From: Roseateles aquatilis
GTDB taxonomy: Bacteria; Pseudomonadota; Gammaproteobacteria; Burkholderiales; Burkholderiaceae_C
Reading direction: 5' to 3'
NCBI RefSeq assembly: GCF_002205645.1
Contig: NZ_NIOF01000002.1
Location: 62,001 to 126,000 of the forward strand
Length of the DNA stretch: 64,000 bases
Below are positions 36,335-54,109 of the stretch, piece by piece. A model generated the notes under the pieces. That model saw only the letters and a program-made list of their open reading frames with translations. It did no database searches and was not told the DNA's origin. Both the position numbers and the translations under genes were made by a program. How positions within the stretch are numbered: position 1 is the first letter of the stretch; the number at the start of each line of letters is the position of its first letter.

Positions 36335-36427
36335 GGTGGAGTCCTCGTGGTTGAACTGCTGCCTTGACGAACGAGGCGCGGTCCGCGTGACACCAGACCC
36401 GCGATCGGGCTGTGGCAAGCTGCGCCG

Positions 36428-37222: not shown

Positions 37223-37563
37223 CTTAGGCGGGCCCCTGGGTCGAACTGCTGCTCCGAAGCGGTCGCCAACCGCTCATTGCTCAGGATGGCGTGGTATCTG
37301 CCTCGACAGAACAGGTCGTCGCGCGAGGTGAAATACGTTGCTAGGCAGACGGTCGACAATTCAATTGCCGTCGGCACAACGCATATCTGTGGCCCCTCAA
37401 TTTTGCTGGCCACGGCCGGAATAAAATCCATGGTTCGCCACATTACTGTCACGCAAGCGAACTTTCTGAAGATATAGAGGCAATTTTATCCCTCCAAAGA
37501 GGGGTTTCATCGATTGTGTGAGCCATGCGAGACTGAATCTCACAACTTGGCTCAATCGATAAA
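37223..37563. other. AT-rich leader region of the microcin island
   Basis: Base composition drops sharply just after the sigma-factor stop. No gene is certain. A minus-strand frame (37219-37452, product containing MDFIPAVASKIEGPQIC and RSRDDLFC-like Cys) reads reasonably but has no clear ribosome-binding site. A short hairpin CCCTC-CAAA-GAGGG sits at 37490-37503. The promoter for the adaptor gene must lie here or downstream of the hairpin; I could not place it. Confidence 0.45.
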
Positions 37564-38865
37564 TTGACTCAGAAAAATCTCTTTCGCCCAGAGGCGTTAA
37601 ATAGTGCAGGCACGCAATGGCTAGGCACAATACGCATTCATCGCCCTCTCAGTTTCTCAGTTCTGACCGGCGGGATCCTGGCGATCGGCCTGGGATTGAG
37701 TTGCTATGCATATTTTGGAAAAGTTACTAGGACGGCGAAACTGCCCGGTATATTAATCCCGGCTAGTGGCCTTGTCGTGATTGGCGCGCCGCAGGCGGCG
37801 ACCATTGACAAAGTTTATGTTTCCGAGGGCGAGCTCGTGTCAAAAGGACAGGCGCTCCTGCGGCTTCGCATTGAGCGAACGACCTCCGCTGGTGATGTTG
37901 CCGAACTAAACGCACGCGCGATCCAGCAGCGACGAATCGGACTCGAAACCGAACGCACCCTCGCCTTGCAGCAACGCCGTCAACGTGTGGATGCTCTGAA
38001 AGAACGGCTGAGGAGTCTCGCCGCCGAGGAGAGACAGGCTGAAGCCGAACTGGATACTCTTCGCTTACGGGCGATGCTTTCAGCCAAAAGTTACGAGCGC
38101 TCCGCGCAATTGGAGCGCGAGCGCTTTATCTCAGACGCACAATTACAGCAAAAGCAGGAGGACTTACTGGATGTCCAATTGCGACAGCGAGCTGCGGAGC
38201 GCAGTGTCGTTGCCCTGAAGCGGGATGCCGAGGCGGTAGAAGCGGACTTGCTGGCCAATGAGACAAACACCCGAACCACGCTGTCTCAATTGAATCGAGC
38301 TATTTTTGTCCTGGACCAGGAGCTGGCTGAGAATTCTGTTCGCTCTATTATTGTAATAGCTGCGCCAAAGGACGGGAAAGTCGGACCGTTGAATTTTGGA
38401 CAAGGTTCGACTGTCCAAGCTGGTCAGGCTATATTGCAAATGACTCTTGGGACTTCTCGGGATGAGAAAGTTCTCGAGGCTCAACTCTACGGACCCAGCC
38501 GGGCTGTGGGGTTCATATCAACTGGCCAGACGGTATGGATGAGGTACGGCGCTTATCCACATCAAAAGTTCGGATTGGCAAAAGGCACGGTTGCAAAAGT
38601 CAGTGAAACCCCAATTGCCGCTGCAGATCTCCCCGTTGGTCAAGCCTCGGCGCTTCTTTCTGCCGCACAGGTGAACGAGCCTCTCTACAGGGTCACGGTT
38701 AGTCTTGAGAAGCAGCATGTTGATGCGTACGGCCAGCGCAAGCCGTTGAAGCCCGGTATGACGCTGAATGCCGATGTGGCGCAGGATGAGCGAAGAATTT
38801 GGGAATGGATTCTCGAGCCACTCCTGGCGCATTCACCAATTTTCCAATCCATGAAAGGCAAGTGA
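37564..38865 (+). CDS. HlyD/CvaA-type membrane-fusion protein of a microcin exporter
   Basis: The 433-residue adaptor couples an inner-membrane ABC exporter to an outer-membrane channel. The N-terminus LFRPEAL...QWLGTIRIHRPLSFSVL is the hallmark of bacteriocin-type adaptors. One transmembrane helix (31-51), a lipoyl half (VVIGAPQAATIDKVYVSEGE), a long coiled coil (about 115-250) and a second lipoyl/barrel part follow. A TTG at 37564 is used as start because an in-frame stop lies 10 codons upstream and no ATG is near; the ribosome-binding site is weak. First gene of the island, lower GC than flanks. A TolC partner is not encoded here. Confidence 0.87.
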   Translation: MTQKNLFRPEALNSAGTQWLGTIRIHRPLSFSVLTGGILAIGLGLSCYAYFGKVTRTAKLPGILIPASGLVVIGAPQAATIDKVYVSEGELVSKGQALLRLRIERTTSAGDVAELNARAIQQRRIGLETERTLALQQRRQRVDALKERLRSLAAEERQAEAELDTLRLRAMLSAKSYERSAQLERERFISDAQLQQKQEDLLDVQLRQRAAERSVVALKRDAEAVEADLLANETNTRTTLSQLNRAIFVLDQELAENSVRSIIVIAAPKDGKVGPLNFGQGSTVQAGQAILQMTLGTSRDEKVLEAQLYGPSRAVGFISTGQTVWMRYGAYPHQKFGLAKGTVAKVSETPIAAADLPVGQASALLSAAQVNEPLYRVTVSLEKQHVDAYGQRKPLKPGMTLNADVAQDERRIWEWILEPLLAHSPIFQSMKGK

Positions 38866-38936
38866 GGTGCATTGATGAGATAGATTGAATGATTGTCCGA
38901 TCTGAAATCCAACATCCTAAATACTGGTGAAATGAT

Positions 38937-39329
38937 ATGAGAGATCTAACGTTTGATGAGATCGCCTGTGTGAGCGGCGGGGAAATGGAGAGTTCCTCGG
39001 GCGGCTCCGGCTCGAGTGGATACTCGTCTGTGTGGGATTCGTCTGCTGGATATTCAATCACGATTGGTTATAATAATCTCACGAATGGTAGTACGGACTT
39101 TAGTGTTCATGTCAATTACAATGGGAATACATTCGGGTACTCGTCGAACTCTGCGCAGCAACTTGGTAGCTTTATTGTGGGTGGTGCCGTTGGTGCAACC
39201 GTGATAGGTCTAGGTGGGCCTGTATGGGCGGCGACAGCGGTCGGGTTTGCTGCAAAGTACGGATATAGCAAGCTCTGGAGTAGTGGAAGGCAAAATATTC
39301 AACAAGATGCGGCTGAATATTTCCCTTAA
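38937..39329 (+). CDS. Microcin/bacteriocin precursor with double-glycine leader
   Basis: The 130-residue precursor begins MRDLTFDEIACVSGG, a 15-residue leader ending in GG that mirrors the colicin V leader (recalled as MRTLTLNELDSVSGG). Cleavage after Gly15 would release a 115-residue peptide. Its first part is rich in Gly, Ser, Tyr and Asn (SSSGGSGSSGYSSVWDSS), and it has a hydrophobic Gly/Ala segment (LGSFIVGGAVGATVIGLGGP) and a charged C-terminus. Such a membrane-inserting segment is typical of class II microcins. The mature part has no Cys. It lies between the adaptor and the exporter genes; the leader fits the C39 peptidase at 39703. Mature sequence not recognised from any known microcin. 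Confidence 0.82.
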   Translation: MRDLTFDEIACVSGGEMESSSGGSGSSGYSSVWDSSAGYSITIGYNNLTNGSTDFSVHVNYNGNTFGYSSNSAQQLGSFIVGGAVGATVIGLGGPVWAATAVGFAAKYGYSKLWSSGRQNIQQDAAEYFP

Positions 39330-39342
39330 ATAATTCTGAATT

Positions 39343-39360
39343 CCGGGCAGGAGTGCCCGG
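39343..39360 (+). terminator. Intercistronic hairpin after the microcin precursor
   Basis: CCGGGCA-GGAG-TGCCCGG gives a 7-bp perfect stem with a 4-nt loop, 14 bp after the precursor stop. There is no U-tract, so it would stabilise the upstream mRNA or attenuate transcription into the next gene rather than terminate fully. Confidence 0.6.
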
Positions 39361-39379
39361 CTTCGAGGAAAGATTGAAA

Positions 39380-39658
39380 ATGACCCAGAGCATGATGTTC
39401 ATTCTCTCCAGTGCTGTATTTGGAATCATCGGCATGTTGATCATGCTGAGCATTGTTCTTGTACTGCGGAGGCTGATGGGATCTGGCCCCGCGCCTCAAA
39501 CGACTTATGTCGCGGCGACTGTTGTTACAGTAGTTGGGCTTGGAATTTTCGGTTATGGAATTGTGAACGCCGGAAGTGAGGAAATCGGATTTGGAGCTGG
39601 CTTGGTCGCGTTGGGATTTATCTGCCTGGCTCGTGTCTTGTTTCGTTCGAAAGTCTGA
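39380..39658 (+). CDS. Three-helix membrane protein, candidate immunity protein
   Basis: The 92-residue protein starts at ATG 39380, with GAGGAAAG at Shine-Dalgarno distance; the frame is open further upstream but that sequence is the hairpin. Three hydrophobic segments (about 7-33, 47-68, 74-88: MMFILSSAVFGIIGMLIML, YVAATVVTVVGLGIFGYGIV, GFGAGLVALGFICLARVL) predict an inner-membrane protein. Small multi-helix proteins directly after the structural gene are the usual self-immunity proteins of class II microcins. The role is inferred from position; no homologue recognised. Confidence 0.65.
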   Translation: MTQSMMFILSSAVFGIIGMLIMLSIVLVLRRLMGSGPAPQTTYVAATVVTVVGLGIFGYGIVNAGSEEIGFGAGLVALGFICLARVLFRSKV

Positions 39659-39702
39659 TGATTCAATGGAAAGAAGACGCTTTCTGACATGTCTTAAAAA
39701 TC

Positions 39703-41835
39703 GTGAAAATTAAACTTCAAGGTCAGGCAAGCGAGTGCGGACTGGCATGTCTGGCCATGATTTCCAGTCATTTTGGGCAGGACCTGACACTGTCTGATTT
39801 GCGTCGACGTTTTCCGACCAGTGTCAAAGGTGCGACGCTACAACAGCTGATTCAGTACGCCACGTCCATGGGAATTTCGGCTCGTGCTGTACGATTGGAA
39901 GTGGAGGAAGTGAAAGACCTGAAGCTTCCTTGTATCTTGCATTGGGGAATGAAGCACTTTGTAGTGCTTGAACGGGTTTATAGAGGTGGCCGATCGGCGG
40001 TGGTACTGGATCCAGCGGTGGGAAGACGAAAGGTCAGTCTTTCCGACATGTCCAGAGATTTTACGGGAGTGGCCCTTGAATGTGTGGCGACTGCCGAATT
40101 CAAGCCCGCAGATGCCCCTCGCAGGGTTTCTATAAAATCGCTTACTGGAAAGGTTGTTGGTGTCAAGCGGTCGTTGGCTCAAATACTATGCGTGGCATTG
40201 GTGTTGGAGTTGTTTGCCATTGTCTCCCCGTTGATCAATCAAACCGTAGTTGACGATGTTCTGACCTCTGGAAATCGGGATCTGTTGACGGTGCTTTTGC
40301 TGGGGTTTGGGCTATTGCTTATCATCCAGACAGTAGTCGGAATTACCCGGTCGTGGATGGTGATGATTCTTGGGCAAACACTGTCGCTTCAATGGGCTGG
40401 TAATGTCTTCTCCCATTTGATTAGACTGCCGGTCGATTTTTTCGAGAAGCGGCACTTGGGGGATATTTCCTCGCGCTTTGCAGCGGTAGGAGCTATTCAG
40501 AAGGTGGTAACCGTCGCGGCCATCGAGGCTTTGATTGATGGCATCATGGTAATTGGCGCTTTTGCGATGATGGTTATATATGCGCCGTCTCTGGCCGTGA
40601 TAACGGTCTTGGCGGTATCTGCATATACTCTTGTGCGCGTTGCGACTTTCTCTGCCTTTCGAGAGGCCGCAGCGGAGCGACTAGTAATGTCAGCGAAAGA
40701 GAGTTCTCATTTTCTTGAAACGCTTCGGGCTGTCGCGCCATTGAGGCTATTTGGCCGTGAGTCTCAAAGGACTTCCATTTGGCAGAATCTGATAGTGGAT
40801 GTGCAAAATAGGGATGTCAGAACTGCCAAGCTGGGGATCTTGTATTCGACCGCGAATACGTTCATATTTGGTGTCGAAAATCTTCTGGTCCTTTGGTTTG
40901 GCGCTAGGCTAATTATGGGTGAGCCGAGTGCGCCTGCTAGCTTGACGGTAGGGATGCTGCTCGCCTATGTGAGCTACAAGGGGCAGTTCACCGGCAGAGT
41001 TACGGCGCTTGTCGGTTATATTTCCGAGGTCAAGATGCTGAGTCTGCATTCGGAACGGCTGACGGATATTGTGTTGGAGGCGCCGGAGTCGGTGTTGGAG
41101 AGTATTCGAGATCTCGGAGATCTAAAGCCGGAAATTGAGTTGCGAAATATTTGCTTTCGCTACTCGCCCAATGATCCGTGGTTGCTGCGTGATGCGTCTC
41201 TGCGAATTGAGGCAGGAGAGGTTGTCGCAATCGTCGGGAGATCTGGCGCGGGAAAGACAACCTTGCTGAAGATTATCTTGGGTATACTGAAGCCAACGGA
41301 AGGAGAGGTTCTATATGGTGGAATTCCTATTGAGCATTTGGGCTTGAATAACTATCGTGCTCAAATCGGTGCAGTCATGCAGGAGGATACGCTGCTGAGC
41401 GGGTCCGTCGGCGAGAACATCTCCTTCTTCGATGGTGAGTTCAATCAAGAAAGAATCGAAGATTGCGCCAAAGTTGTGCAAATTCACGAGGATATCGTGC
41501 ATATGCCCATGGGATATCAGACGCTCGTCGGGGATATGGGGGCCGGGCTTTCTGGGGGGCAAAAACAACGCATATTGTTTGCCCGCGCGCTGTACAAGTT
41601 GCCGCGAGTGCTCGTGCTTGATGAGGCCACGAGTCATCTTGACGCTCAGCGCGAGCATGAATTGTCCGCCGCCTTGAGTGCCTTGCCGCTTACGCGCCTA
41701 ATTGTGGCGCATCGGTTGGAAACCATTGCCGTTGCGCAGCGCGTTGTTGTGGTCGAGGGCGGAAGAATCAATTCGCGACCGGAGCAGCGCGACCTGACTC
41801 CTAGCCCGATGCCCGCCAAACTCAGTCCGGGATGA
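39703..41835 (+). CDS. CvaB-like peptidase-containing ABC exporter (PCAT)
   Basis: The 710-residue exporter cleaves double-glycine leaders and transports the peptide. The N-terminal C39 peptidase has Cys12 (QASECGLACLAM), His85 (WGMKHFVVLERV) and Asp103 (VVLDPAVGRRKVS), so it should be active. Six transmembrane helices follow (about 160-440). The ATPase domain has Walker A VGRSGAGKTT (about 510), signature LSGGQKQR and Walker B VLVLDEATSHLD. Start is GTG 39703 because KIKLQGQASECG is the normal family N-terminus. It completes the adaptor-precursor-immunity-exporter set. Codon use and GC are unlike the sulfur and isc regions, suggesting transfer. Confidence 0.93.
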   Translation: MKIKLQGQASECGLACLAMISSHFGQDLTLSDLRRRFPTSVKGATLQQLIQYATSMGISARAVRLEVEEVKDLKLPCILHWGMKHFVVLERVYRGGRSAVVLDPAVGRRKVSLSDMSRDFTGVALECVATAEFKPADAPRRVSIKSLTGKVVGVKRSLAQILCVALVLELFAIVSPLINQTVVDDVLTSGNRDLLTVLLLGFGLLLIIQTVVGITRSWMVMILGQTLSLQWAGNVFSHLIRLPVDFFEKRHLGDISSRFAAVGAIQKVVTVAAIEALIDGIMVIGAFAMMVIYAPSLAVITVLAVSAYTLVRVATFSAFREAAAERLVMSAKESSHFLETLRAVAPLRLFGRESQRTSIWQNLIVDVQNRDVRTAKLGILYSTANTFIFGVENLLVLWFGARLIMGEPSAPASLTVGMLLAYVSYKGQFTGRVTALVGYISEVKMLSLHSERLTDIVLEAPESVLESIRDLGDLKPEIELRNICFRYSPNDPWLLRDASLRIEAGEVVAIVGRSGAGKTTLLKIILGILKPTEGEVLYGGIPIEHLGLNNYRAQIGAVMQEDTLLSGSVGENISFFDGEFNQERIEDCAKVVQIHEDIVHMPMGYQTLVGDMGAGLSGGQKQRILFARALYKLPRVLVLDEATSHLDAQREHELSAALSALPLTRLIVAHRLETIAVAQRVVVVEGGRINSRPEQRDLTPSPMPAKLSPG

Positions 41836-41894
41836 ATCGACGCGAGATCCCTACACACCTTTGAGCCTCAAGCTAAGGTCCATTAGGAGGTGCT

Positions 41895-41995
41895 ATGACG
41901 GAGAAGAATCCGTAGCCGAAGAATTCAAGATCGCAACGGTCAAGCAGATCGCGGAACGAGGTCACCGGGTGGCCGATGTGGTAAAAGAGCTGTGA
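41895..41995 (+). mobile_element. Remnant of an IS3-type transposase OrfA
   Basis: After TTAGGAGGTGCTATG, a decayed frame encodes EEFKIATVKQIAERGHRV followed by ADVVKEL and a stop (41918-41995). This matches the start of IS3-family OrfA proteins, which read (E)EFK..AV..v.erG.sV.eVa..LG. The first codons are out of frame and the rest of the element is missing. It marks a past insertion at the edge of the microcin island. Confidence 0.65.
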
Positions 41996-42070
41996 ACTGC
42001 GACACTCCACAAAATGCGAGGTGTCGAACTTCAACTTTGAGCCGGTCTAACTTACGGGCGGTGGCCTGAA

Positions 42071-42259
42071 ATGCAACCTATGAGTAAAGATTTAGGTCCT
42101 AGGCTCGACGAGCAAGACGTCGAAGCCAGTTTGAAGGTGGATCGTGGGTTGGCTTCCGAGGTGGTATTTATCGATCTGCATTCTCCAAATTGCGATATGT
42201 ATGCCGTGGCGCCAACCTTCGAGGAGCTCATTGTGAAACTGCGGCCGTTTGGACATTAG
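42071..42259 (+). CDS. Small hypothetical protein or fragment
   Basis: A 62-codon frame (ATG 42071 or 42080) whose C-terminal part reads VVFIDLHSPNCDMYAVAPTF then EELIVKL. That resembles the end of SMI1/KNR4-type (SUKH) immunity proteins, where a final helix follows such a strand; too short to be a whole domain, so it may be a remnant. Weak ribosome-binding site. Adjacent to an IS remnant. Confidence 0.35.
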   Translation: MQPMSKDLGPRLDEQDVEASLKVDRGLASEVVFIDLHSPNCDMYAVAPTFEELIVKLRPFGH

Positions 42260-42312
42260 CCCGCACGTAGAAAGAGCGCGTAGACGCCTGCGGCACACGA
42301 CGGAAATACCCT

Positions 42313-42639
42313 ATGGATTCGACCTGGGCACTCCGATTGCATTCCCAAGGCAATGCCGTGAAAGACATCAGCAACTACGTGGTGGTCGGCCACTTCAAAA
42401 GTGACACCGATGCAGTGATGGCGTTGTATCTGGAGATGTTGGGCGAGGAGGTCCATCTGCTGCCTGGTCAGGAGGTGGAGTTGCTGGCCGCACCCGATCC
42501 CAACTTGTTGCCCATCACCGTCTTGCTGGTCCCCATCGGTATGCATGTGCACCCCTACAAGGTGTTCGATCCAGATTGGCACGTGCGGTTCAACGGGCGA
42601 GTCATTCGGGCGGGAAATCCGACCCGGTTGGACGAGTAG
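42313..42639 (+). CDS. Hypothetical protein, 108 aa
   Basis: The protein has an even amino-acid composition and segments such as YVVVGHFKSDTDAVMALYLE and ITVLLVPIGMHVHPYKVFD, which look like a small alpha/beta domain. No signal peptide, no membrane helix, no family recognised. The Shine-Dalgarno is weak. It sits between the microcin island and the kinase gene and could be cargo of the same accessory region. Confidence 0.45.
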   Translation: MDSTWALRLHSQGNAVKDISNYVVVGHFKSDTDAVMALYLEMLGEEVHLLPGQEVELLAAPDPNLLPITVLLVPIGMHVHPYKVFDPDWHVRFNGRVIRAGNPTRLDE

Positions 42640-42878
42640 CAACCGCGGTTCTTGGCTGTCGTTGCTCGCGCGTTTGAAGCAAGCGTGGGGGACGAATACG
42701 AGTGCCGGTCCGAAATGATCGAAGACGCCGTCAACCATGCGTCGATGCCTTGCGTTGGGAAACGCGACACCCCTCTTGAACATTCGACTGCCGACTGCGC
42801 CATCGCGGCCAATCCAGGGCAGCGAGATTCCCTTCATCTGTTGAACGCCCCGTTGACTGCACCTTTAGGAGGTTACGC

Positions 42879-43775
42879 ATGACAGGACTGCAACCCATTG
42901 AAGCTCTCGTATCGTCACATCTGAATGCCGAGTGGCGTGTTCACTCGCGGCGAGACGTCTCAGGCAGGCGGCGGGCGGAGATATTGAATGGGCTTGGAGT
43001 GGCGGTGTTCGTCAAGTTCACCAATCCACCACATGCGTTGCGCAAGGCTCAATGCGAGGCCATGGCACTTGAGCGCATGGCGGAGATTCCTGGCGTGCGG
43101 ACCCCCGCCGTCATTGGAGCGATCGAGATGCCGGATGGTCAGGCTGCGCTGGTGCTGGAGGCCGTCCGCGCGATATATCCGACGTCAGCCAGCTGGGAGG
43201 CGGCCGCAGAGATGGTGGTCGCGTTGCATCGCTCCACCGACACCAGTTTCGGCCTCGATCATGACAACTTCATTGGTGACTTCGATCAGGACAACAGCAG
43301 GAGCGATAGCTGGCCCCAGTTCTACGCTGGCTCTCGTCTGACGCCGATGCTGCGTCGCCTGGAGACGACCAACATCGCGGAAGCCCAGGAGATCGACCTG
43401 CTTTGGCGTGTGATCGAAGGGCTTGACGACATCGCCATCGAGGCCGCTCCTCCCAGTCTTCTTCATGGCGACCTCTGGCCAGGCAACGTGATCTTCGATG
43501 AGCGCGGCCCGCTTCTCATCGACCCGGCCGTCAGTTTTGGGGATCGCGAGATGGATCTCGCGTTCGGCCGAATGGCGCTCCACTTGGCGCCGCACCTGGC
43601 GTTCCCTGACGCCTTCTACGCCCGATATGAAAGCTTGGCACCGCTGCCATCCGGGCACGAGCATCGAGCCCATCTATGGCAGCTTTGGCCCCTGCTTGCC
43701 CACGCCATTCAGGATGGACGCGACTGGATGCCGCCACTCGTGGCAGCAGCTCAGCGGTGCCGAGACGAGGCCTGA
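42879..43775 (+). CDS. Fructosamine kinase / aminoglycoside-phosphotransferase-fold kinase
   Basis: The 298-residue protein has the small-molecule kinase fold. The catalytic loop is HGDLWPGN (196-203, Asp198 as base) and the metal-binding DPA follows at 215-217, then VSFGDREMDLAF. The HGDLW(S/P)GN plus DPA..(Y/F)GDREXDLA pattern is that of fructosamine-3-kinase-like proteins, which phosphorylate glycated amines for deglycation. An excellent Shine-Dalgarno (AGGAGGT) precedes ATG 42879. It stands alone. Confidence 0.85.
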   Translation: MTGLQPIEALVSSHLNAEWRVHSRRDVSGRRRAEILNGLGVAVFVKFTNPPHALRKAQCEAMALERMAEIPGVRTPAVIGAIEMPDGQAALVLEAVRAIYPTSASWEAAAEMVVALHRSTDTSFGLDHDNFIGDFDQDNSRSDSWPQFYAGSRLTPMLRRLETTNIAEAQEIDLLWRVIEGLDDIAIEAAPPSLLHGDLWPGNVIFDERGPLLIDPAVSFGDREMDLAFGRMALHLAPHLAFPDAFYARYESLAPLPSGHEHRAHLWQLWPLLAHAIQDGRDWMPPLVAAAQRCRDEA

Positions 43776-43973
43776 GACCGGCTGGCGGCATGTGATCTGG
43801 TCGATGGGCTCATTGGCGCTCTTCTTTCCCTGCATCGCCACAGCACAACCCACATCCGCAGCCCCTCAATCTCGCAGATCGCGCCGTCTGAAGCCCCATC
43901 TTCAGCATCCGATCCGAAGCCCCGTTCGTAGCATCGGCAGACCCGGAGATTCCCTCCCGAAAGGCCGCCTGCC

Positions 43974-44327
43974 ATGTCTGAACTGCTCGTTACCTTCAAG
44001 CTCGACCAACTCGGCGAACCGCGCGAATACCGGCCTCCGGCCGAGCGCGTGCTCGAAGGCGACATCATCTGCCGCAACTGGGACATCGACAGCGCCAAGG
44101 ACGGCAAGGTCCGTGCGGGTGTCTTCGAGTCGACGCCGGGCTTGAATATCTCCATCAAGGGCGAGACCTGGGAGTTCTGCCTGATCCTGTCCGGCATCGC
44201 CGAGATCACCGAGGACGGCCATGCCCCGATCACCTACAAGGCCGGTGACTGCTTCATCATGAAGCCGGGCTACAAGGGGACCTGGCGCACGCTGGAAACG
44301 GTGCGCAAGGTCTGGGTCATGGCCTGA
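43974..44327 (+). CDS. Cupin-domain protein
   Basis: The 117-residue single cupin contains ETWEFCLILSGIAEITEDGH and a second motif ITYKAGDCFIMKPGYKGTW, as in the (S)-ureidoglycine aminohydrolase-like cupin_3 group. Ligand residues are partly replaced, so metal binding is uncertain. Enzymatic role unknown. It converges on the rhodanese gene. Confidence 0.85.
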   Translation: MSELLVTFKLDQLGEPREYRPPAERVLEGDIICRNWDIDSAKDGKVRAGVFESTPGLNISIKGETWEFCLILSGIAEITEDGHAPITYKAGDCFIMKPGYKGTWRTLETVRKVWVMA

Positions 44328-44380
44328 GGACCGCCTCGGGCGTGGCCCGCGCCGCATCCGGGCCGCGCCCGCCTTGCCTC

Positions 44381-44425
44381 GACACGGCGCGCCGCGCCGT
44401 GTCCTGACGTGTCGCGCCGCGTCAG
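44381..44425. terminator. Tandem GC hairpins between convergent genes
   Basis: GACACGGCGCG-C-CGCGCCGTGTC (44381-44403) is a near-perfect dyad, followed by CTGACG...CGTCAG (44404-44425). There are no U-tracts; the position between two convergent stops fits bidirectional termination or mRNA 3'-end protection. Confidence 0.4.
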
Positions 44426-44435
44426 ACGCGGGCCG

Positions 44436-46163
44436 TCACGCGGCCGGATCCAGCACCCTGAAGAAATGCGTGCCGTCCCGATCCAGCTGGTTGACGAGCC
44501 CGAACTCCCAGTCCAGGTAGGCCTGCATCGCGGCATGCGGGTTGTCCGTGCCCTCATAGGGACGGCGGTAGCGGTCATCGCGCGGGAACGCGAAGCGCGG
44601 GTCGGCGGTCTCCAGCCGCAGCCCGGCGTCGAACCAGCCGGTGGTGCCGTCCTCCAGGATCAGCAGCTCGCGGCCTTGCGCGGCGAGGTCCGCCGCGACG
44701 TCCGACGCGGCGAAGCGCGGCAGCAGGCCGAGGTTGCCGGTCAGCACGACACGGCGCGCCTGGGGGATCACCGTGCGCAGCGCCTCGGACAGGCGGGCGC
44801 GCGGGCTCCACCAGGCGCCGGGGATGTGCCGGGCCACGTAGGTCCCGCTGGGCGCCACGTCGACCACGACGACGTCGTCGGGCTGCGCCTCGCGCCAGCG
44901 GGCGAGCTCGCGCGGCGACACCGTCTTCACGACCGGCGGCGACGGGTGCGGCGCGCGGTCGGGGCCGGTTTCCGTGAACGCCTCGTCGTCATGCGGCAGC
45001 ACCGCCACCTCCCAGCCCATCTGCGCCAGCCAGGCGGCGGCCATGGGGGCGCGCACGCCGTCGTCGTCGGTCACGACGATGCGGGCGCCGCGCACCGGCG
45101 CGTGATGGTCGGTCTCCTGCACCAACTGGCCGCCCGGCGCGTTGCGGAAGCCGGGGCGGTGGCCGCGCAGGTACTCCTCGGGGCCGCGCACGTCGAAGCG
45201 GTAGGTGGTGCGGTCCGTGTCGGCAAGCCAGTCGGCCAGTTGCCGTGCATCGAGTCGCGCGACCCGGGCGCGTCGCGCCAGGTCGGCCGCGGCGTCGCGC
45301 GCCGCGTCGAGGTCACCCACGGGCACGTCCTCGTGCGAGCGTCCCTGGCCGTGCGCCAGCGTCTGGCCGGCGAGCGTCCAGCCGATGGTGCCGTTGCGCA
45401 GCGCGACGACTGGATTCGGGATCCCGGCGTCGATCAGCGATTGCGCGCCGATGATGCTGCGCGTGCGGCCGGCGCAGTTGACGATGATCGTCGTGGCCGG
45501 ATCGGGCGCCAGGTCGCGCGCGCGGCGGACCAGCTCGCCACCGGGCACGCTGATGCCGCCGGGCAGGCTCATGGTGCGGTATTCGTCGAAGCGGCGGGCA
45601 TCCAGCACGACGACGTCGGCGCGACCGGCCAGCAGCGCCTGCACTTCGGTCGCCGGCAACGACGGCGTGTGGCGGCGCGCCTCGACCAGCTCGCCGAAGG
45701 CCTTGCTGGGCACGTTGACGTCGCGGAAGAGCTCCAGCCCCGCGGCGCGCCAGGCGGCGAGACCGCCGGCCAGCAGCGCGACGTCGGTGTAGCCGAGCCC
45801 TTGCAGCCGCCGCGCGGCGAGTTCCGCCAGGCCGCCGCCGTCGTCGTAGACGACCACCGGCACGTCGCGGCGAGGCAGGCGCCCCCAGGCGTCAAGCTCC
45901 AGCCGGGACAGCGGCAGGTTGGCCGCCCAGAGCGGATGGCCCTGGGCGTAGGGGTCTTCTTCGCGGACGTCGAGGAAGGCGATCTCGGTGCGGGCGAGCA
46001 GCGCGGCGCGCACCGCGTCGGGCGAACGTGTCGGCAGCGGCGTCGACGGGCTTGGCGGCGTCAACGGTATCGATGCCGATGCCGATGTCGACGTTGGCGT
46101 TGGCGTCGCGATCGACGTCAGCGTGGGCAGGAGCGGGCGTGCGGTCATCGTCGTGTCGCTCAT
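44436..46163 (-). CDS. Four-domain rhodanese (sulfurtransferase) with one active domain
   Basis: The 575-residue protein has four rhodanese-like domains, roughly 48-145, 165-265, 310-410 and 430-540. Only the second carries the catalytic Cys: NCAGRTRS with Cys230. Domain 1 has VVVYDDGGG, domain 3 VVTDDDGV and domain 4 VVLTGNLG at the equivalent loop, so they lack it. Residues 7-48 are a Thr/Ser/Pro low-complexity tail. The start overlaps the stop of the SsuA-type gene by 4 bp, indicating one operon for sulfur-compound use. It would transfer sulfane sulfur; donor and acceptor unknown. Confidence 0.88.
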   Translation of the reverse strand: MSDTTMTARPLLPTLTSIATPTPTSTSASASIPLTPPSPSTPLPTRSPDAVRAALLARTEIAFLDVREEDPYAQGHPLWAANLPLSRLELDAWGRLPRRDVPVVVYDDGGGLAELAARRLQGLGYTDVALLAGGLAAWRAAGLELFRDVNVPSKAFGELVEARRHTPSLPATEVQALLAGRADVVVLDARRFDEYRTMSLPGGISVPGGELVRRARDLAPDPATTIIVNCAGRTRSIIGAQSLIDAGIPNPVVALRNGTIGWTLAGQTLAHGQGRSHEDVPVGDLDAARDAAADLARRARVARLDARQLADWLADTDRTTYRFDVRGPEEYLRGHRPGFRNAPGGQLVQETDHHAPVRGARIVVTDDDGVRAPMAAAWLAQMGWEVAVLPHDDEAFTETGPDRAPHPSPPVVKTVSPRELARWREAQPDDVVVVDVAPSGTYVARHIPGAWWSPRARLSEALRTVIPQARRVVLTGNLGLLPRFAASDVAADLAAQGRELLILEDGTTGWFDAGLRLETADPRFAFPRDDRYRRPYEGTDNPHAAMQAYLDWEFGLVNQLDRDGTHFFRVLDPAA

Positions 46164-47149
46164 GCGGGGCGCCACACGGGCGAGTCCTGGACCGTCACGC
46201 GGCGCGGCAGGATCTGCGCGCCGGTGAAGGCGTCGGCGATGCGTTGCTGCTCGGACAGCGATTCGGCGTCCACCGGGCGGACCGCGTAGCTGCGGCGCTC
46301 GTTGGCGGCGGCGACGGTGGCGGCGTCGAGGCCCAGCACCGGCGCGTGCCAGTCGGCCGCGGCGGCGGGATTCTTCTTGACCCAGTCGCCGGCGCGCTGC
46401 AGCTCGTCGTAGACGCGTTGCAGCACGTCCGGGTGTTGCTGCGCGAAGGGCGTGGCCGCCAGGTAGAAGCGGCGGTAGGCGGCGATGCGCGTGCCGTCGA
46501 CGAGGATGCGGGCGCCCGATTGCCGCTGCACGGCGGCCAGGAACGGGTCCCACACGACCCAGGCGGCGACGGCGCCGTTCTCGAAGGCGGAGCGGCCGTC
46601 GGCGGGGTTCAGGTAGGCGGGCTCGATGTCGCGGATGGACAGGCCGGTCTGGGCCAGCGCCTCCAGCAACAGGTAATGCGCGCCGGCGCCCTTGGCGAAG
46701 GCGACCTTCTTGCCCTTGAGCTGCGCGACCGCGGTGATCGGCGAGTCCTTGCGCACGACGATGGCTTGCGCCGTGGGCGAGGGCGTCTCGATCGCGTAGT
46801 AGGTGACCTTGGCGCCCGCGGCCAGCGCGAACGGCGGCACCGCGTCGGCGACGTCGGCGCTCAGGTCGAGCGCGCCGACGTTCAGCGCTTCGAGCAGCGG
46901 CAGGCCGGAGGTGAACTCGTGCCACTGCACGGCGACCCGCTGCGGCGCCAGCGCCTTCTCCAGCACGCCGCGCGACTTCAGGAACAGCGTCAGCGTGCTG
47001 GACTTCTGGTAGCCGATGCGCAGCGTCTTGGGGTCGGCGGCTCGCGCCAAGGACAGGGCGGCCGGCAGCGCGGCGATGCCGGCGGTCGCGGCGGCCTGGG
47101 CCAGCCAGCGGCGGCGCGACGAATCAAGCGAGGAGGGCGGGAAGGACAT
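46160..47149 (-). CDS. SsuA-type aliphatic sulfonate / organosulfur binding protein
   Basis: The 329-residue periplasmic binding protein has an N-terminal SRRRWLA followed by a hydrophobic stretch to ARA-AD, which looks like a Tat signal. The mature part begins KTLRIGYQKSSTLTLFLKSR, as in SsuA/TauA-like proteins. It contains VVWDPFLAAVQ and the usual lobe II segments. No permease or ATPase gene adjoins it, so it must use a transporter encoded elsewhere. First gene of a two-gene operon with the rhodanese. Confidence 0.9.
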   Translation of the reverse strand: MSFPPSSLDSSRRRWLAQAAATAGIAALPAALSLARAADPKTLRIGYQKSSTLTLFLKSRGVLEKALAPQRVAVQWHEFTSGLPLLEALNVGALDLSADVADAVPPFALAAGAKVTYYAIETPSPTAQAIVVRKDSPITAVAQLKGKKVAFAKGAGAHYLLLEALAQTGLSIRDIEPAYLNPADGRSAFENGAVAAWVVWDPFLAAVQRQSGARILVDGTRIAAYRRFYLAATPFAQQHPDVLQRVYDELQRAGDWVKKNPAAAADWHAPVLGLDAATVAAANERRSYAVRPVDAESLSEQQRIADAFTGAQILPRRVTVQDSPVWRPA

Positions 47150-47338
47150 GGCGCGATCTCAGGGGGAGCCGGTGATCGGTGCAGCGTAGGGGGCGGTCAC
47201 CCGGTGCCGAACGAAGCAAATCGAGGATCGATAGATGCGGGGTGGTGTTGGGCTGGTCAGTTCAGATTTGATGGATATTTGTATATTTCTCGCAAATGCA
47301 CATCCGTCGAAGGCGTGGGGTAGTTATTCGATGCTAGG

Positions 47339-47358
47339 TACATGTCCGTGAACATGTA
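47339..47358. promoter_or_regulatory. 20-bp dyad TACATGT-N6-ACATGTA
   Basis: A perfect 7-bp inverted repeat with 6-nt spacer lies 78 bp upstream of the second double-glycine peptide gene, in an AT-rich intergenic stretch (47150-47435). The size is that of a dimeric-regulator operator; a LuxR-type box is also 20 bp and dyadic. Which regulator binds is not known. Confidence 0.5.
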
Positions 47359-47435
47359 TTCATTCGGTCTCCGTAGAGTTTGTTTCAGCGGTTGGGCCCG
47401 ACTCGCTTTTTGAAACCAATCTGGAGATATGAATC

Positions 47436-47630
47436 ATGCAGTCGAAAGATATTGAATTGATGGAAGTCGATATGAATCTGCTAGGCGAAGTTTGTGGAGG
47501 GTTGGACTGGGAAGGCTACCGTATGAGCGAGAACGTCGAGGATGTGCGCGGCTGCACACCGATGGAGAACTACATCAATCCGGGCAGCGGGCACGCTGCC
47601 TCCTGTGATAATCCGCGCTTTAGGAACTGA
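47436..47630 (+). CDS. Second double-glycine-leader peptide precursor
   Basis: The 64-residue peptide has the leader MQSKDIELMEVDMNLLGEVCGG (22 residues, two at a time: MQSKDIELME, VDMNLLGEVCGG). Hydrophobic positions at -4, -7 and -12 and the GG end match C39-peptidase leaders. The predicted 42-residue mature peptide starts LDWEGYR and has Cys40 and Cys57, enough for one disulfide. It ends NPRFRN. GGAG lies 9 nt before the ATG. Its local base composition is AT-rich like the microcin island 5.6 kb upstream. Could be a second bacteriocin or a signalling peptide; no homologue recognised. Confidence 0.65.
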   Translation: MQSKDIELMEVDMNLLGEVCGGLDWEGYRMSENVEDVRGCTPMENYINPGSGHAASCDNPRFRN

Positions 47631-47643
47631 CGGGAGTCGAACG

Positions 47644-48111
47644 ATGCGGGCTGAATGCAAGCATGGGCTGATCGCAGTGCTGTTCGTGTTTGGCCTGCTT
47701 TTGCCAATATTCTCAGATGCGATGGAAAGCTCCAGCGCAGTGCTGCCGAAAGCGCTCGTTGATGCGCGGTTCTACTCTTGGGGAATGGTGGGCACTCCGG
47801 GTGCGATTTCTGAAGAGGAGAATGCGGCTCGGAAAGTATTCCGAGACTGGTCGCGCAATGAAGTTTTTCGCGCGCTGCCGACCGCCAATCCCGAAGGCAA
47901 GCTCTACCTGCTCTGCGTCGTGAGGCGCCGATTCCCCGATCGGTATGCCGAGGCCAAGGCGTTGGCCGGGCTGGCGCAGGACCAGCAGGTGTCCGTGTTC
48001 TCGGGCTCCGTCCTGCGCAAGGTGCTGGCCTCGGACCTGATCGGCCAGTTCGAACGCAGCGCCTGCGAGCCGCTGTCCTGGCCCCAAGACCCCGCCCCGA
48101 AAGGGGGCTAA
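47644..48111 (+). CDS. Exported hypothetical protein downstream of the second precursor
   Basis: The 155-residue protein has a signal peptide (CKHGLIAVLFVFGLLLPIFS, DAM). The mature part includes LYLLCVVRRRFPDRYAEAKA and LRKVLASDLIGQFERSACEP, with two Cys. It starts 13 bp after the peptide stop, with GGAG before the ATG, so both are probably one operon. It could be an immunity or modification partner; this is inferred from position only. Family not recognised. Confidence 0.6.
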   Translation: MRAECKHGLIAVLFVFGLLLPIFSDAMESSSAVLPKALVDARFYSWGMVGTPGAISEEENAARKVFRDWSRNEVFRALPTANPEGKLYLLCVVRRRFPDRYAEAKALAGLAQDQQVSVFSGSVLRKVLASDLIGQFERSACEPLSWPQDPAPKGG

Positions 48112-48476
48112 CGTCGCCGCGATTCACGCGTGGTCGCATTGCGCCCTCATGATGCGCGAGCGCGCCCGGCTGCCATCGGTCGGGCGTCTCAGGCCTCTAT
48201 ATAGGGCCTGGAGGCCTCCATGAGGCCGCTTCCTGCTGCGTCGCAGCATCGGAAGCCATGCCCGCCGGCTCCGGCGGGCGCGATTCGCTGCCCGGCGCCG
48301 GCCCCGGCCGCGCCCTCCCGACGCTCGTCGGGGGTAACCCGAGCAAGCCTTCTCTTAATTGAGTAAAATGGTCGGACATTGCGGTGGGTTAACCCTCGCC
48401 GCTCCGTGAGCCGGCCGATGACCCGTCGTGCCGCCGCCTCAATGTCCTGCTGCCCGAAGGGCCAAGGAGAAGTTCG
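48112..48476. other. Intergenic region upstream of the isc operon
   Basis: No gene is supported on either strand. It carries a GC-rich dyad (AGGCCT repeats near 48187-48230) and, at its right end, the IscR-like box and presumed operon promoter. The iscR leader is about 95 bp. Confidence 0.6.
48356..48380 (+). promoter_or_regulatory. IscR-type operator/promoter
   Basis: The sequence TTGAGTAAAATGGTCGGACAT resembles the type 1 IscR site of betaproteobacteria (recalled as TTGACTAAA-N-ACTCGG) and lies about 100 bp before iscR. Holo-IscR binding here would repress the operon when Fe-S clusters are plentiful. Confidence 0.6.
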
Positions 48477-49010
48477 ATGCGTCTCACCACCAAAGGTCGT
48501 TTTGCCGTCACCGCGATGATTGATCTGGCCCTGCGCGAAAACAGCGGGCCCGTCGCGCTGGCGGCGATCAGCCAGCGCCAGCAGATCTCGCTGTCCTACC
48601 TGGAACAGCTGTTCGGCAAGCTGCGCCGCCATCAGCTGGTCGAAAGCACCCGCGGCCCCGGCGGCGGTTACTCGCTGGGCCGTCGCTCCGACGAGATCAC
48701 CGTGGCCGACATCATCGTCGCCGTGGACGAGCCCATCGACGCCACCGGCTGCGGTGGCAAGGAAAACTGCATGGGCGACGACACCGGCCGCTGCATCACG
48801 CACGACCTGTGGACGGCGCTCAATAACAAGATGATCGAGTACCTCGACTCGGTCACGCTGCGCAAGCTGGTCGACGACCAGCTCGCCAAGGGCGTCACCG
48901 TCGAGGAAGCGCCCATCAAGCGCGCGATCTCCAGCACCCCGGTCGTCAAGCCCATCCGCATCACCGCGCCGAACTCCGTCTTCGCGCTCGGCAGCGCCTT
49001 GAGCAAGTGA
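48477..49010 (+). CDS. iscR: Fe-S cluster-sensing transcriptional regulator IscR
   Basis: The 177-residue Rrf2-family repressor has winged helix-turn-helix residues 1-80 (MRLTTKGRFAVTAMIDLAL, ISLSYLEQLFGKLR, RGPGGGYSLGR). Cluster ligands Cys92, Cys98 and Cys106 with His109 lie in GCGGKENCMGDDTGRCITH. The last Cys-Cys spacing is two residues longer than in E. coli (92/98/104). First gene of the isc operon and very likely autoregulated through the box upstream. Confidence 0.97.
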   Translation: MRLTTKGRFAVTAMIDLALRENSGPVALAAISQRQQISLSYLEQLFGKLRRHQLVESTRGPGGGYSLGRRSDEITVADIIVAVDEPIDATGCGGKENCMGDDTGRCITHDLWTALNNKMIEYLDSVTLRKLVDDQLAKGVTVEEAPIKRAISSTPVVKPIRITAPNSVFALGSALSK

Positions 49011-49070
49011 CCCTCGGGACCGGTCCCGCATTCCGTTGAATCAGCAGTCGATCAGAAGAAGAAACTTCCC

Positions 49071-50291
<1,221 letters not shown>

Positions 50292-50361
50292 GCGCCCCCA
50301 TTGATCGCGACTGATTGACCGCCATCTGATCATTACGAACAAAGACGTTGGAGAACGAGCC

Positions 50362-50790
50362 ATGGCATACAGCGACAAGGTCATCGACCACTACGAAAAC
50401 CCGCGCAACGTGGGCGGCTTTGACAAGGGCGACGAGTCCGTGGGCACCGGCATGGTCGGCGCGCCGGCCTGCGGCGACGTGATGAAGCTGCAGATCAAGG
50501 TCAACCCGGCCACCGGGCTGATCGAGGACGCCAAGTTCAAGACCTACGGCTGCGGCTCCGCGATCGCATCGAGCTCGCTGGTGACCGAGTGGGTCAAGGG
50601 CAAGAGCCTGGACGAGGCGCTGACGATCAAGAACAACCAGATCGCCGAGGAACTGGCGCTGCCGCCGGTCAAGATCCACTGCTCGATCCTGGCCGAGGAC
50701 GCCATCAAGGCCGCCGTCGACGACTACCGCGCCAAGCACGGCGCGACCGCTGGCGCGGCCCAGGCCGAGACCGCCTCCGCGACGGCCTGA
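50362..50790 (+). CDS. iscU: Fe-S cluster scaffold protein
   Basis: This 142-residue scaffold assembles [2Fe-2S] clusters. Cys37 (GAPACGDVM), Cys63 (YGCGSAIA) and Cys106 ([10 protein letters not shown]) are present, as is LPPVK, the HscA recognition motif. A Thr/Ala-rich tail of about 15 residues extends the usual C-terminus. Confidence 0.98.
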
Positions 50791-50800
50791 GGTCCGGAGC

Positions 50801-51124
50801 ATGTCCGTCACCCTGACCGAAGCCGCGGCCCGCCACGTCACGCGCTACATCTCGAAGCGCGGGCGCGGCGTGGGCGTGCGCCTGGGCGTCAAGACCACCG
50901 GCTGCTCCGGCCTGGCCTACAAGCTGGAGTACGCGGACGAGGTCGCCCCGGAGGACGTCGTCTTCGAGGGGCATGGCGTCAAGATCCTGATCGATCCCAA
51001 GAGCCTGCCCTACCTGGACGGCACCGAGCTGGATTTCGTGCGCGAGGGCCTCAACGAGGGCTTCAAGTTCCGCAATCCGCGCGAGAAGGATCGCTGCGGC
51101 TGCGGCGAGTCCTTCCGCATCTGA
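50801..51124 (+). CDS. iscA: A-type Fe-S carrier
   Basis: The 107-residue A-type carrier has Cys35 ([12 protein letters not shown]) and the C-terminal CGCG pair (Cys99, Cys101). It hands clusters or iron to targets. It starts 10 bp after iscU. An intrinsic terminator follows 35 bp after its stop. Confidence 0.97.
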
Positions 51125-51158
51125 CCCGGCGCCCGCCGACGGCGCCACCCGCGAAGGG

Positions 51159-51184
51159 GCGCGGCCCGCGAGCCGCGCTTTTTT
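51159..51184 (+). terminator. Intrinsic terminator between iscA and hscB
   Basis: GCGCGGC-CCGCGA-GCCGCGC followed by six T. The stem is seven G-C pairs and can extend by G-T and A-T pairs. It ends 10 bp before the hscB start, inside the otherwise contiguous isc operon. Confidence 0.8.
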
Positions 51185-51194
51185 CATTGACACC

Positions 51195-51710
51195 GTGAAA
51201 CTCGACGACGACGACTTCAGCCTCTTCGGCCTGCCGGCGCGCTTCGCGCAGGATGGCGCCGAGATCGCCGCGCGCTGGAAGGCGCTGGCGGCCAAGGTGC
51301 ATCCGGACCGCTTCGCCGCCGACGGCGCGGCGTCGCAGCGGCTGGCGATGCAATGGGCGCTGCGCGTCAACGAGGCGCACCAGCGCCTGCGCGATCCGCT
51401 CAAGCGCGCCGCCTACCTGTGCGAGCTGCGCGGCGCGCCGATCCAGGCACACGAGAACACGCGCATGCCGACCGCCTTCCTGATGGAGCAGATGGAATGG
51501 CGCGAAGGGCTGGACGAGGCCCAGGGCGCCGCGGCGGTGATGAAGATCGACGACGAGGTCGCCGCCCGCGAGCGCGCGCTGCTGGCCCAGGCCGGCCGGC
51601 AGCTCGACGACGACCAGGATCCGGCCGCGGCGGCCGAGACGGTGCGGGCGCTGATGTTCATCCATCGCTTCCGCGAAGACCTCGACCGCCGGCTCGAAAC
51701 AGAAACGTGA
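51195..51710 (+). CDS. hscB: J-domain co-chaperone of Fe-S assembly
   Basis: The 171-residue protein has a J-domain with HPD (36-38, in AAKVHPDRF) and a C-terminal helical domain that binds IscU. It stimulates the HscA ATPase. GTG 51195 is used: the family N-terminus (LDDDDFSLFGLP) follows directly and no ATG is near. The intrinsic terminator lies just upstream. Confidence 0.95.
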   Translation: MKLDDDDFSLFGLPARFAQDGAEIAARWKALAAKVHPDRFAADGAASQRLAMQWALRVNEAHQRLRDPLKRAAYLCELRGAPIQAHENTRMPTAFLMEQMEWREGLDEAQGAAAVMKIDDEVAARERALLAQAGRQLDDDQDPAAAAETVRALMFIHRFREDLDRRLETET

Positions 51711-51799
51711 GCTGACGCGGCCCCGGCATCGCGCCGACCGCGTCACCGTCCGACAGAACAACCACAACGATCGTTGGTGCACCGACACCCCCCGACACC

Positions 51800-53668
51800 A
51801 TGGCCCTGCTGCAGATCTCCGAACCCGGCGCCTCGCCTGATCCCCATCAGCGCCGCATTGCCGTGGGCATCGACCTGGGCACCACGCATTCGCTGGTCGC
51901 CGCGGTCCGCCACGGCATCGCCGAATGCCTGCCGGACGAGCAGGGCCGCGTGATCCTGCCGTCGGCGGTGCGGGTGATGCCCGAGGGCCGCCGCCAGTTC
52001 GGCTACGACGCGCTGGCCGCGCAGGCCGAGGATCCGGAGAACACCATCGTTTCGGTGAAGCGCTTCATGGGTCGCCGCGTCGCCGACATCGCGGGCCGCG
52101 AGAAGCTGCCCTACCGCTTCGAGGACACGCCCGGCATGCTCAGCCTGGCCACGCGCGAGGGGCCGAAGTCGCCGGTGGAGATCTCCGCCGAGATCCTGGC
52201 GACGCTGCGCCAGCGCGCCGAGGACACCTTCAACGACGACCTGTTCGGCGCCGTCATCACGGTGCCGGCCTACTTCGACGACGCCCAGCGCCAGGCGACC
52301 AAGGATGCCGCGCAACTGGCCGGCCTGAACGTGCTGCGCCTGATCAACGAGCCGACCGCCGCCGCCATCGCCTACGGCCTGGACAACGGCAGCGAGGGGC
52401 TCTACGCCGTCTACGACCTGGGCGGCGGCACCTTCGACATCTCGCTGCTGCGCCTGACGAAGGGCGTCTTCGAGGTCGTGGCGACCGGCGGTGACGCGCA
52501 GCTCGGTGGTGACGACTTCGACGGCCTGCTGGCCGACTGGGCGTTGCAGCAGGCCGGCCTGAACATCGACAGCGCGGCGGACAAGCGCCGCGTGCTGGTC
52601 GCCGCGCGCCAGGCCAAGGAAGCCTTGACGGACAACGCCAGCGTCACGCTGAGCGCCGCGCTGGACGGCGGCACGTTGAGCGTCGTGGTCACACGCGAGC
52701 AATTCGACGCGCTGGCCCAGCCGCTGGTGGCCAAGACGCTGCTGGCGGTGCGACGCGTGCTGCGCGACGCCAAGGTCGGCGCCGACGAGGTGCAAGGCAC
52801 CGTGATGGTGGGCGGCTCGACCCGCATGCCGATCGTGCGTCGCGTCGTCGGCGAGCTGTTCGGTCGCGAGGTGCTGACCAACCTGAATCCCGACGAGGTG
52901 GTGGCGCTCGGCGCCGCCGTGCAGGCCAATCAACTGGCCGGCAACAGCTCGGACGGCGAGATCCTGCTGCTGGACGTGATCCCGCTGTCCCTGGGGCTGG
53001 AGACCATGGGGGGGCTGGTCGAGCGCATCATCGAGCGCAACGCCACCATCCCCGTGGCCAAGGCGCAGGACTTCACCACCTTCAAGGACGGCCAGACCGC
53101 GCTGGCGGTCCACGTGCTGCAGGGCGAGCGCGAGTTGGTGAGCGAGTGCCGCTCGCTGGCGCGCTTCGAGCTGCGCGGCATTCCGCCGATGGTCGCTGGC
53201 GCCGCGCGCATCCGCGTGGCCTTCCAGGTCGACGCGGACGGCCTGCTGAGCGTGTCGGCGCGCGAGCTGGGCTCGGGCGTCGAAGCGACGGTGCAGGTCA
53301 AGCCCAGCTACGGCCTGTCCGACGACCAGATCGCGACCATGCTGCGCGAGGGCTTCGCCAGCGCCGAGACCGACATGGTGACCCGCAAGCTGCGCGAGGC
53401 GCGCGTCGATGCCGAGCGCATGATCCTGGCGACCCAGTCCGCGCTGCGCGCCGACGGCGACCTGCTGAGCGACGCGGAACGCGCCGACATCGCCGCGTTG
53501 CAGACCGAGTTGCTGGCCCGGGCGCAGGCCGAGGATGGACTGGCCGACCCGGACGCGATCACCGCCGCCGTCGAGGCGCTGGCCAAGGGCACCGAAGCCT
53601 TCGCCGCCGCGCGCATGAACCGCGGCATCCAGCAGGCGTTGACCGGTCGCAGCATCGACCAGATCTGA
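51800..53668 (+). CDS. hscA: Hsp70-class chaperone of Fe-S assembly
   Basis: The 622-residue Hsp70 is specialised for IscU: ATPase domain with [31 protein letters not shown] and [13 protein letters not shown], substrate domain from about 390 ([16 protein letters not shown]), helical lid at the end. It drives release of clusters from IscU. Shorter than DnaK and without its acidic tail, as expected. Confidence 0.97.
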
Positions 53669-53770
53669 CCGCCCGCCGCCACGCACGCCCGACGACGCCC
53701 CAAGACTCCACAAGACGCCACCCGCGACGCTCCCCAGCCAGCCGCCGCCGCAAGCTCCAAGGACATCCCC

Positions 53771-54109
53771 ATGCCTGTCATCAAGATCCTTCCCCATCCC
53801 GAGTACGCGCCCGAGGGCAAGACGATCCAGGCGCCGTCCGGCACCACGATCTGCGAGGCGCTGCTGGACAACCACATCGACATCGAGCACGCCTGCGATC
53901 AGGTCTGCGCCTGCACGACCTGCCACGTGATCGTGCGCGAGGGCTTCGCCTCGCTGTCGGAGATGGAAGAGAACGAAGAGGACATGCTGGACCGCGCCTG
54001 GGGCCTGGAGCCCAACTCGCGCCTGTCCTGCCAGGCCATCCTGGCCAACACCGACGTGACGGTCGAGATCCCGAAGTACTCGATCAACCACGCCAAAGAG
54101 AACCATTGA
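53771..54109 (+). CDS. fdx: ISC-system [2Fe-2S] ferredoxin
   Basis: The 112-residue ferredoxin has ligands Cys42, Cys48, Cys51 and Cys87 (HACDQVCACTTCHVIV and LSCQAI), with an extra Cys46 near the cluster as in E. coli Fdx. It supplies electrons for cluster assembly. Last gene of the isc cluster; IscX is absent from its usual place. Confidence 0.96.
   Translation: MPVIKILPHPEYAPEGKTIQAPSGTTICEALLDNHIDIEHACDQVCACTTCHVIVREGFASLSEMEENEEDMLDRAWGLEPNSRLSCQAILANTDVTVEIPKYSINHAKENH

Follow-up and report, generated by a model that had tools for sequence, protein, structure and literature searches.

Two adjacent genes of Roseateles aquatilis, encoding a 64-aa double-glycine (GG) precursor and a 155-aa exported protein (P0002), probably form a toxin-immunity pair of the microcin I47 type, with an I47-type killing head, another uptake tail and a periplasmic immunity protein; we put the probability of this at about 0.7. 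The pair lies at 47436-48111 of the window, by which we mean the whole stretch of DNA analysed (64,000 nucleotides; contig NZ_NIOF01000002.1, positions 62,001 to 126,000) from a host genome of 6.4 Mb. The sequence-only reading had suggested a second bacteriocin, and our comparisons support this and make it specific: an apparent I47-type microcin head stands beside an MchS3-type immunity homologue (Table 1).

We infer the roles in killing, immunity and export, as well as those of head and tail. The precursor would be cut behind the double glycine and leave the cell through a C39 ABC exporter, possibly that at 39703. Its 42-aa product would then enter related bacteria via the C-terminal tail, and the N-terminal 17-residue head, common to microcin I47, would act in the periplasm or at the inner membrane. 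The neighbouring protein would reach the periplasm by its signal peptide and neutralise the peptide in the producer, as is reported of MchS3 for I47. PMC7472721 and PMC6723558 report mchS3 as the I47 immunity gene, in an operon with mchS2, and PMC9542533 reports that I47-making cells without the immunity gene mciI die; mciI and mchS3 are presumably the same gene. For class II microcins, PMC10233263 and PMC13101503 place the activity in the N-terminal part of the mature peptide and the uptake in its C-terminal part.

Table 1. Features of the window discussed in the text (window coordinates)
Feature	Position	Strand	Basis or remark
HlyD-type membrane-fusion protein beside the 39703 exporter	37564..38865	+	Pfam HlyD_D23, HlyD_3; TTG start as listed
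Separate 130-aa double-glycine precursor, leader MRDLTFDEIACVSGG	38937-39329		between HlyD-type gene and C39 exporter
C39-peptidase ABC exporter, candidate exporter of the peptide	39703..41835	+	Pfam Peptidase_C39 (E 1.1e-33), ABC_membrane, ABC_tran
Likely ribosome-binding site of the peptide gene, TGGAGA	47422..47427	+	read from sequence; GGAG at 47423-47426
Peptide ORF, 64-aa double-glycine precursor	47436-47630	+	MQSKDIELMEVDMNLLGEVCGG / LDWEGYRMSENVEDVRGCTPMENYINPGSGHAASCDNPRFRN
22-aa double-glycine leader MQSKDIELMEVDMNLLGEVCGG	47436..47501	+	V/L/V at -4/-7/-12
Core residues 1-17, head common to microcin I47, LDWEGYRMSENVEDVRG	47502..47552	+	profile comparison and fixed-distance head test
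Core residues 18-42, two-Cys tail CTPMENYINPGSGHAASCDNPRFRN	47553..47627	+	19/25 residues identical in G012
Likely ribosome-binding site of the partner gene, GGGAG	47632..47636	+	read from sequence
P0002, 155-aa MchS3-like exported protein, proposed immunity protein	47644..48111	+	NCBIfam, alignment, predicted fold

The layout of the locus agreed with what had been claimed earlier. The ORF reads as a 64-aa GG precursor with a 22-residue leader and two Cys in a 42-residue core, the third Cys of the precursor sitting in the leader. Starting at the later ATG of codon 9 would shorten the leader to 14 aa, but no ribosome-binding site stands before that ATG. The proposed AT-rich patch was recovered as well (GC 0.51 in 47250-47749, against 0.65-0.75 reached in flanking windows); on one side of it lies a minus-strand substrate-binding-protein gene (Pfam NMT1) and on the other a gene that we take to be iscR. 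A single promoter-like site was discounted, as it overlaps the start codon and 0.4 such sites are expected by chance. The partner begins with the ATG at 47644, 13 bp past the peptide stop and behind GGGAG, and its N-terminus is signal-peptide-like. The exporter ORF ends at 41835, which confirms the distance of 5.6 kb, and no exporter adjoins the pair in the host genome or in G012, a second Roseateles genome, which is a point against the I47-type reading.

With the peptide as query, 2 of 60 genomes matched (all 16 genomes of the genus being among the 60), namely the host genome itself and G012. The G012 homologue (60% over 55 aa, E 1.1e-17) starts with GTG behind AGGAGG and stands directly before a homologue of the partner gene, so that an intact pair is present in a second genome. 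Its leader is also 22 aa long, and the conservation of the GG leader that had been proposed as a check was thus found in the sole full-length homologue. The two cores share 28 of 42 residues, and the tail is more strongly conserved than the head between the two species (19/25 residues, against 9/17 in the head). Over the last 25 core codons, 17 differences fell at the third codon position, against 4 at the first and 3 at the second. Because the G012 homologue precedes a partner homologue and the codon differences are biased to the third position, the peptide gene is more than a chance reading frame; by the same codon comparison, the core appears to be under purifying selection. A peptide-profile scan of genome contigs and tblastn of the window peptide against plasmids revealed no relative. 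Profile searching of 399 family genomes returned the host genome and five weak matches (L013-L017; E 0.001-0.009), which were not counted as relatives; they cover 17-26 of the 64 profile positions, four of them inside 302-366-aa frames and the fifth in a short frame that contains a stop.

With the partner as query, four of the 16 genus genomes matched: the host, G012, G014 and G002. G014 holds a 20-aa peptide remnant, in which a leader-like start runs into DNPRFRN, and in G002 only the 3' end of the peptide gene is left, behind an unrelated 161-aa ORF. The gene upstream of both these partner loci is presumably an electron-transfer-flavoprotein dehydrogenase, and the site is not that of iscR. 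iscR is present in 15 of the 16 genus genomes, and tblastn detected neither peptide nor partner within 1.5 kb on either side of it in the 14 other genomes. The stretch before iscR (47150-48280) is variable in the genus, with DNA similarity stopping at about 48278-48459 (window coordinates) in 14 other genomes; in G009, the space between iscR and the substrate-binding gene holds an ORF that resembles a low-molecular-weight phosphatase, and G003 also has such an ORF in the stretch before iscR.

P0002 matched the NCBIfam model MchS3 (NF041432) with an E-value of 1.6e-8, the whole model being covered, at a score far under the curated cut-off (34.9 vs 100 bits), which counts against the I47-type reading; on this comparison, P0002 appears to be a distant MchS3 homologue and, by the cut-off rule, not a family member. 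BLASTP of P0002 against E. coli MchS3 gave no match, which also counts against that reading, so the two are connected through the profile and through intermediate proteins, for example one from Limnohabitans (64.5 bits to NF041432, 30% identical to P0002). All nine family proteins scanned matched NF041432 and no other family, and two of them passed its cut-off (E. coli, 139.3 bits; Serratia, 125.8 bits). Alignment of seven MchS3-like proteins, including P0002 and E. coli MchS3, revealed ten invariant columns, among them Cys91 and Cys141 (P0002 numbering).

The partner family is rare: counting the host genome each time, it was found in 5 of 299 family genomes and in 1 of 369 class genomes (the host), and a broader profile matched 4 of 298 family genomes. 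Matches in named genomes were Roseateles depolymerans DSM 11813 (L052; the same protein as in G002), a Burkholderiaceae MAG (L053) and a Limnohabitans MAG (L054). While tblastn of P0002 against plasmids returned nothing, a Limnohabitans-type relative as query found Serratia and Raoultella plasmids; phages gave no match to E. coli MchS3 by tblastn, and viral contigs none to the MchS3-type profile. At two loci, L054 and L062, the MchS3-like gene was found without a GG peptide beside it, which again counts against the I47-type reading. The latter (L062:3926-5330, Erwinia sp. E602 plasmid) is a lone gene behind an annotated N-acetylmuramoyl-L-alanine amidase gene.

The strongest hydrophobic stretch was N-terminal in seven of eight homologues, the eighth (L053) giving two close values, 1.50 and 1.55; past residue 30, no 19-residue window exceeded 1.55 in any of the eight (Kyte-Doolittle). 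P0002 is better read as a soluble protein of the periplasm. AlphaFold predicted, fairly confidently, a compact domain at about residues 31-140, and a Foldseek search with this fold gave nothing at E <=0.001 (best 0.11). Prp38 splicing factors topped the remaining matches (nine rows; VIA Z 9.0-11.3, rmsd 2.6-3.0, 111-114 residues), yet these values are within the range common for helical models, and nothing was concluded from them. The best reading of the exported partner is that of an immunity protein.

We compared the peptide with those found beside mchS3-type genes. In E. coli NCCP 13963, the annotated mchS3 is followed by an unannotated ORF of 77 aa, the length that PMC7472721 gives for the mchS2 product. 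In two E. coli RefSeq stretches (L055:2289-2522 and L056), the I47 precursor ORF is unannotated though mchS3 is annotated, and the three CFT073 stretches examined had no annotated mchS3. A Serratia marcescens plasmid carries an MchS3-like gene and then an 84-aa GG peptide, 61% identical to I47 over 57 aa, and a Raoultella plasmid carries both an MchS3-like gene and an I47-like peptide. On an Erwinia pyrifoliae plasmid (L061:3411-3647), a decayed I47-like peptide with recognisable GG and head was observed, matched in eight Erwinia plasmid records. The sequences behind GG are MNLNGLPSSTNVIDLRG in I47, FVTDGHRESTNVVDQRG in Serratia, MKWQVGREPTNVVDFRG in the Erwinia pyrifoliae plasmid remnant, LDWEGYRMSENVEDVRG in the window and LKIEGSRLSENLVDMRS in G012. 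The first 17 core residues of the window peptide match those of I47 and of a plasmid relative at the same distance from GG, with the pattern GxxxSxNVxDxRG.

Aligning the window and G012 peptides with those of I47 and Serratia by hhalign gave a probability of 90.7 and an E-value of 1.3e-6 over leader and head, and BLASTP of the window against the Serratia peptide gave E 9e-7 as a single comparison. Since leaders converge, the head was tested alone at a fixed distance from GG, among the 13,330 distinct 17-mers that follow GG or GA in the six-frame translation of the DNA examined. The two references and an I47 variant scored 117-125, the window 65, the Erwinia remnant 61 and G012 61, with the rest at 36 or less. 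These scores were reached in 0 (window) and 1 (G012) of 100,000 core shuffles, the anchoring at GG having been chosen after the alignment had been seen. When cores were compared with their leaders, 0 of 5000 shuffles reached the score in each of four pairs; without leader and anchoring, 57, 20, 217 and 76 of 5000 did so, a modest significance. The tail of the window peptide showed no likeness to I47-type tails beyond chance, as 153-1624 of 2000 shuffles reached the score, depending on pair and gap cost; a likeness seen by eye (C, TP, Y, GSG) failed shuffling. The modest significance of the unanchored cores and the mismatch of the tails both count against the I47-type reading. The results indicate that the head of the window peptide is homologous to that of microcin I47, with homology detected in the head and not in the tail. 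Since I47 has counterparts of the head and the partner but another tail, and the tail is the better conserved part here, we read the peptide as a putative I47-type killing head on a different uptake tail.

As in E. coli I47 (mchS2/mciA) with MchS3 (mciI), a GG precursor adjoins an exported MchS3-type protein in the window, and the heads match over 17 residues, with N11, D14 and R16 identical. However, the I47 core has 62 aa and a serine-rich tail that carries a siderophore, whereas the window core has 42 aa and a tail with two Cys and no serine-rich end. The I47 cluster also includes its own exporter and modification genes, whereas no exporter adjoins the window pair; an MchC relative was not found in the host genome, in a search run without a positive control. 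The immunity gene comes first in E. coli and Serratia and the peptide first in the window, which counts against the I47-type reading. In the unannotated plasmid pairs of Serratia marcescens LY1 and Raoultella ornithinolytica LL1, an MchS3-like gene adjoins a GG peptide with the same head and, as in the window, a Cys-containing rather than serine-rich end, but these precursors have 84 aa with the longer I47 middle part, and their immunity gene stands first. The hybrid class IIa candidates of Erwinia and Pantoea described in PMC13174018 likewise join a siderophore-microcin-type head to a Cys tail, with no siderophore genes; their heads resemble microcin H47, unlike the I47-type head of the window peptide.

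Measured against the class II features given in PMC11494933 (a leader ending in GG or GA, hydrophobic residues at -4, -7 and -12, typically 15-18 aa), the window peptide has V, L and V before GG, and its leader, like that of G012, is longer at 22 aa; a later start would give 14 or 15. Glycine makes up 9.5% of the core, outside the usual 12-26%, although candidates at 8-10% are discussed in the same source. Leader length and glycine content both count against the I47-type reading. An immunity gene beside the precursor gene is present by homology only, as the MchS3-like gene 13 bp downstream. Class II precursors also have a PCAT (C39) exporter in their vicinity; the distance to such an exporter is 5.6 kb in the window and about 71 kb in G012. 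PMC11634061 describes class IIb microcins as having a serine-rich C-terminus that ends in serine and fewer than two Cys; the window tail ends in SCDNPRFRN, and its core has two Cys.

As for export, the host genome has six C39 matches, and C39 matches were found in all 16 genus genomes searched; occurrence mainly in genomes devoid of C39 exporters, which would have spoken against the sequence-only reading, was thus not seen, and for the same reason co-occurrence with C39 is uninformative. That reading had also named co-occurrence with the 39703 exporter as a check, and the pair did not track this exporter: relatives of it with at least 52% identity are found in G014 and in nine more of the 15 other genus genomes, the best match is 49% identical in G012 and 40% in G002, and the nearest full C39 gene to the pair in G012 is about 71 kb away. 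Sharing of the 39703 exporter with the peptide at 47436-47630 is possible. The separate 130-aa precursor beside that exporter had no Pfam or NCBIfam match. Other GG peptides were observed near other C39 exporters, with the core motif PKGTW twice (L063:5332-5574 in the host; L067:5003-5182 in G012), and a set with PQIINDG-like cores was seen in G012 (L068:4032-6043) and G002 (L072:5901-6053); some of these ORFs repeat leader-like and core-like units, and the G012 set stands before a C39 exporter.

The missing neighbour exporter in both genomes would also suit a relic, that is, a pair that arrived by transfer, lost its own exporter and persists unsecreted as an immunity gene with the peptide on its way out. 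The same is suggested by the peptide remnants in G014 and G002, two of the four partner-bearing genomes of the genus, and by the AT-rich patch before iscR, a site without the pair in 14 of 14 other genomes. However, both the host and G012 have an undamaged reading frame, ribosome-binding sites and GG leader, 17 of the 24 differences over the last 25 codons fall at third positions, and every genus genome has C39 matches, so we consider a relic unlikely, though the most plausible of the alternatives.

P0002 might instead be a maturation or export helper of a microcin whose immunity lies elsewhere or is unneeded. It is predicted to be soluble and exported, whereas immunity proteins are, according to PMC7472721, usually of the multi-pass kind, but MchS3 is itself reported as the I47 immunity protein (PMC7472721, PMC6723558), and partner genes persist without the peptide, as expected of immunity and not of a helper; this explanation seems improbable. 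Slightly less probable still is a secreted signal (pheromone) with the 155-aa protein as its periplasmic binding or processing partner; the sequence-only reading had named a peptide pheromone as its other option, and our comparisons lent it no support: a GG leader, a small Cys-containing peptide and an exported partner would fit, but partner and head belong elsewhere to a microcin immunity and toxin pair, and no sensor-kinase gene was seen by eye in the 36000-54000 ORF list, of which some ORFs were scanned against Pfam.

Relative to the I47-type systems described so far, the toxin-immunity pair appears to be new in its bacterial order, its shorter core and its homology in the head only. A 2022 review (PMC10233263) gives the I47 target as unknown, takes all its microcins from Enterobacteriaceae and puts class II cores at 60-90 aa; PMC11634061 reports twelve new class IIb microcins of Enterobacteriaceae, one being an I47 relative with an immunity relative in Raoultella. 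Judged by titles and the beginnings of abstracts, no such peptide appeared in the open-licence literature on class II microcins or double-glycine colicin V-type peptides of Burkholderiales and on Roseateles bacteriocins.

Since this 42-aa relative from another order shares only its head and its immunity partner with I47, the immunity protein seems to belong with the head, which would then be the part that kills; a few head residues thereby become candidates for I47 killing activity. The comparison also suggests a soluble periplasmic nature for the MchS3-type immunity family, unlike the membrane proteins usually described. More tentatively, and at slightly less than even odds, the 17-residue head GxxxSxNVxDxRG may by itself be a minimal module for killing. 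Beta- and gamma-proteobacteria would then carry it on differing uptake tails, with a soluble MchS3-type protein of the periplasm as its guard. If so, no class II microcin smaller than the window peptide (42 aa) would be known, and the I47 target would be conserved from Escherichia to Roseateles.
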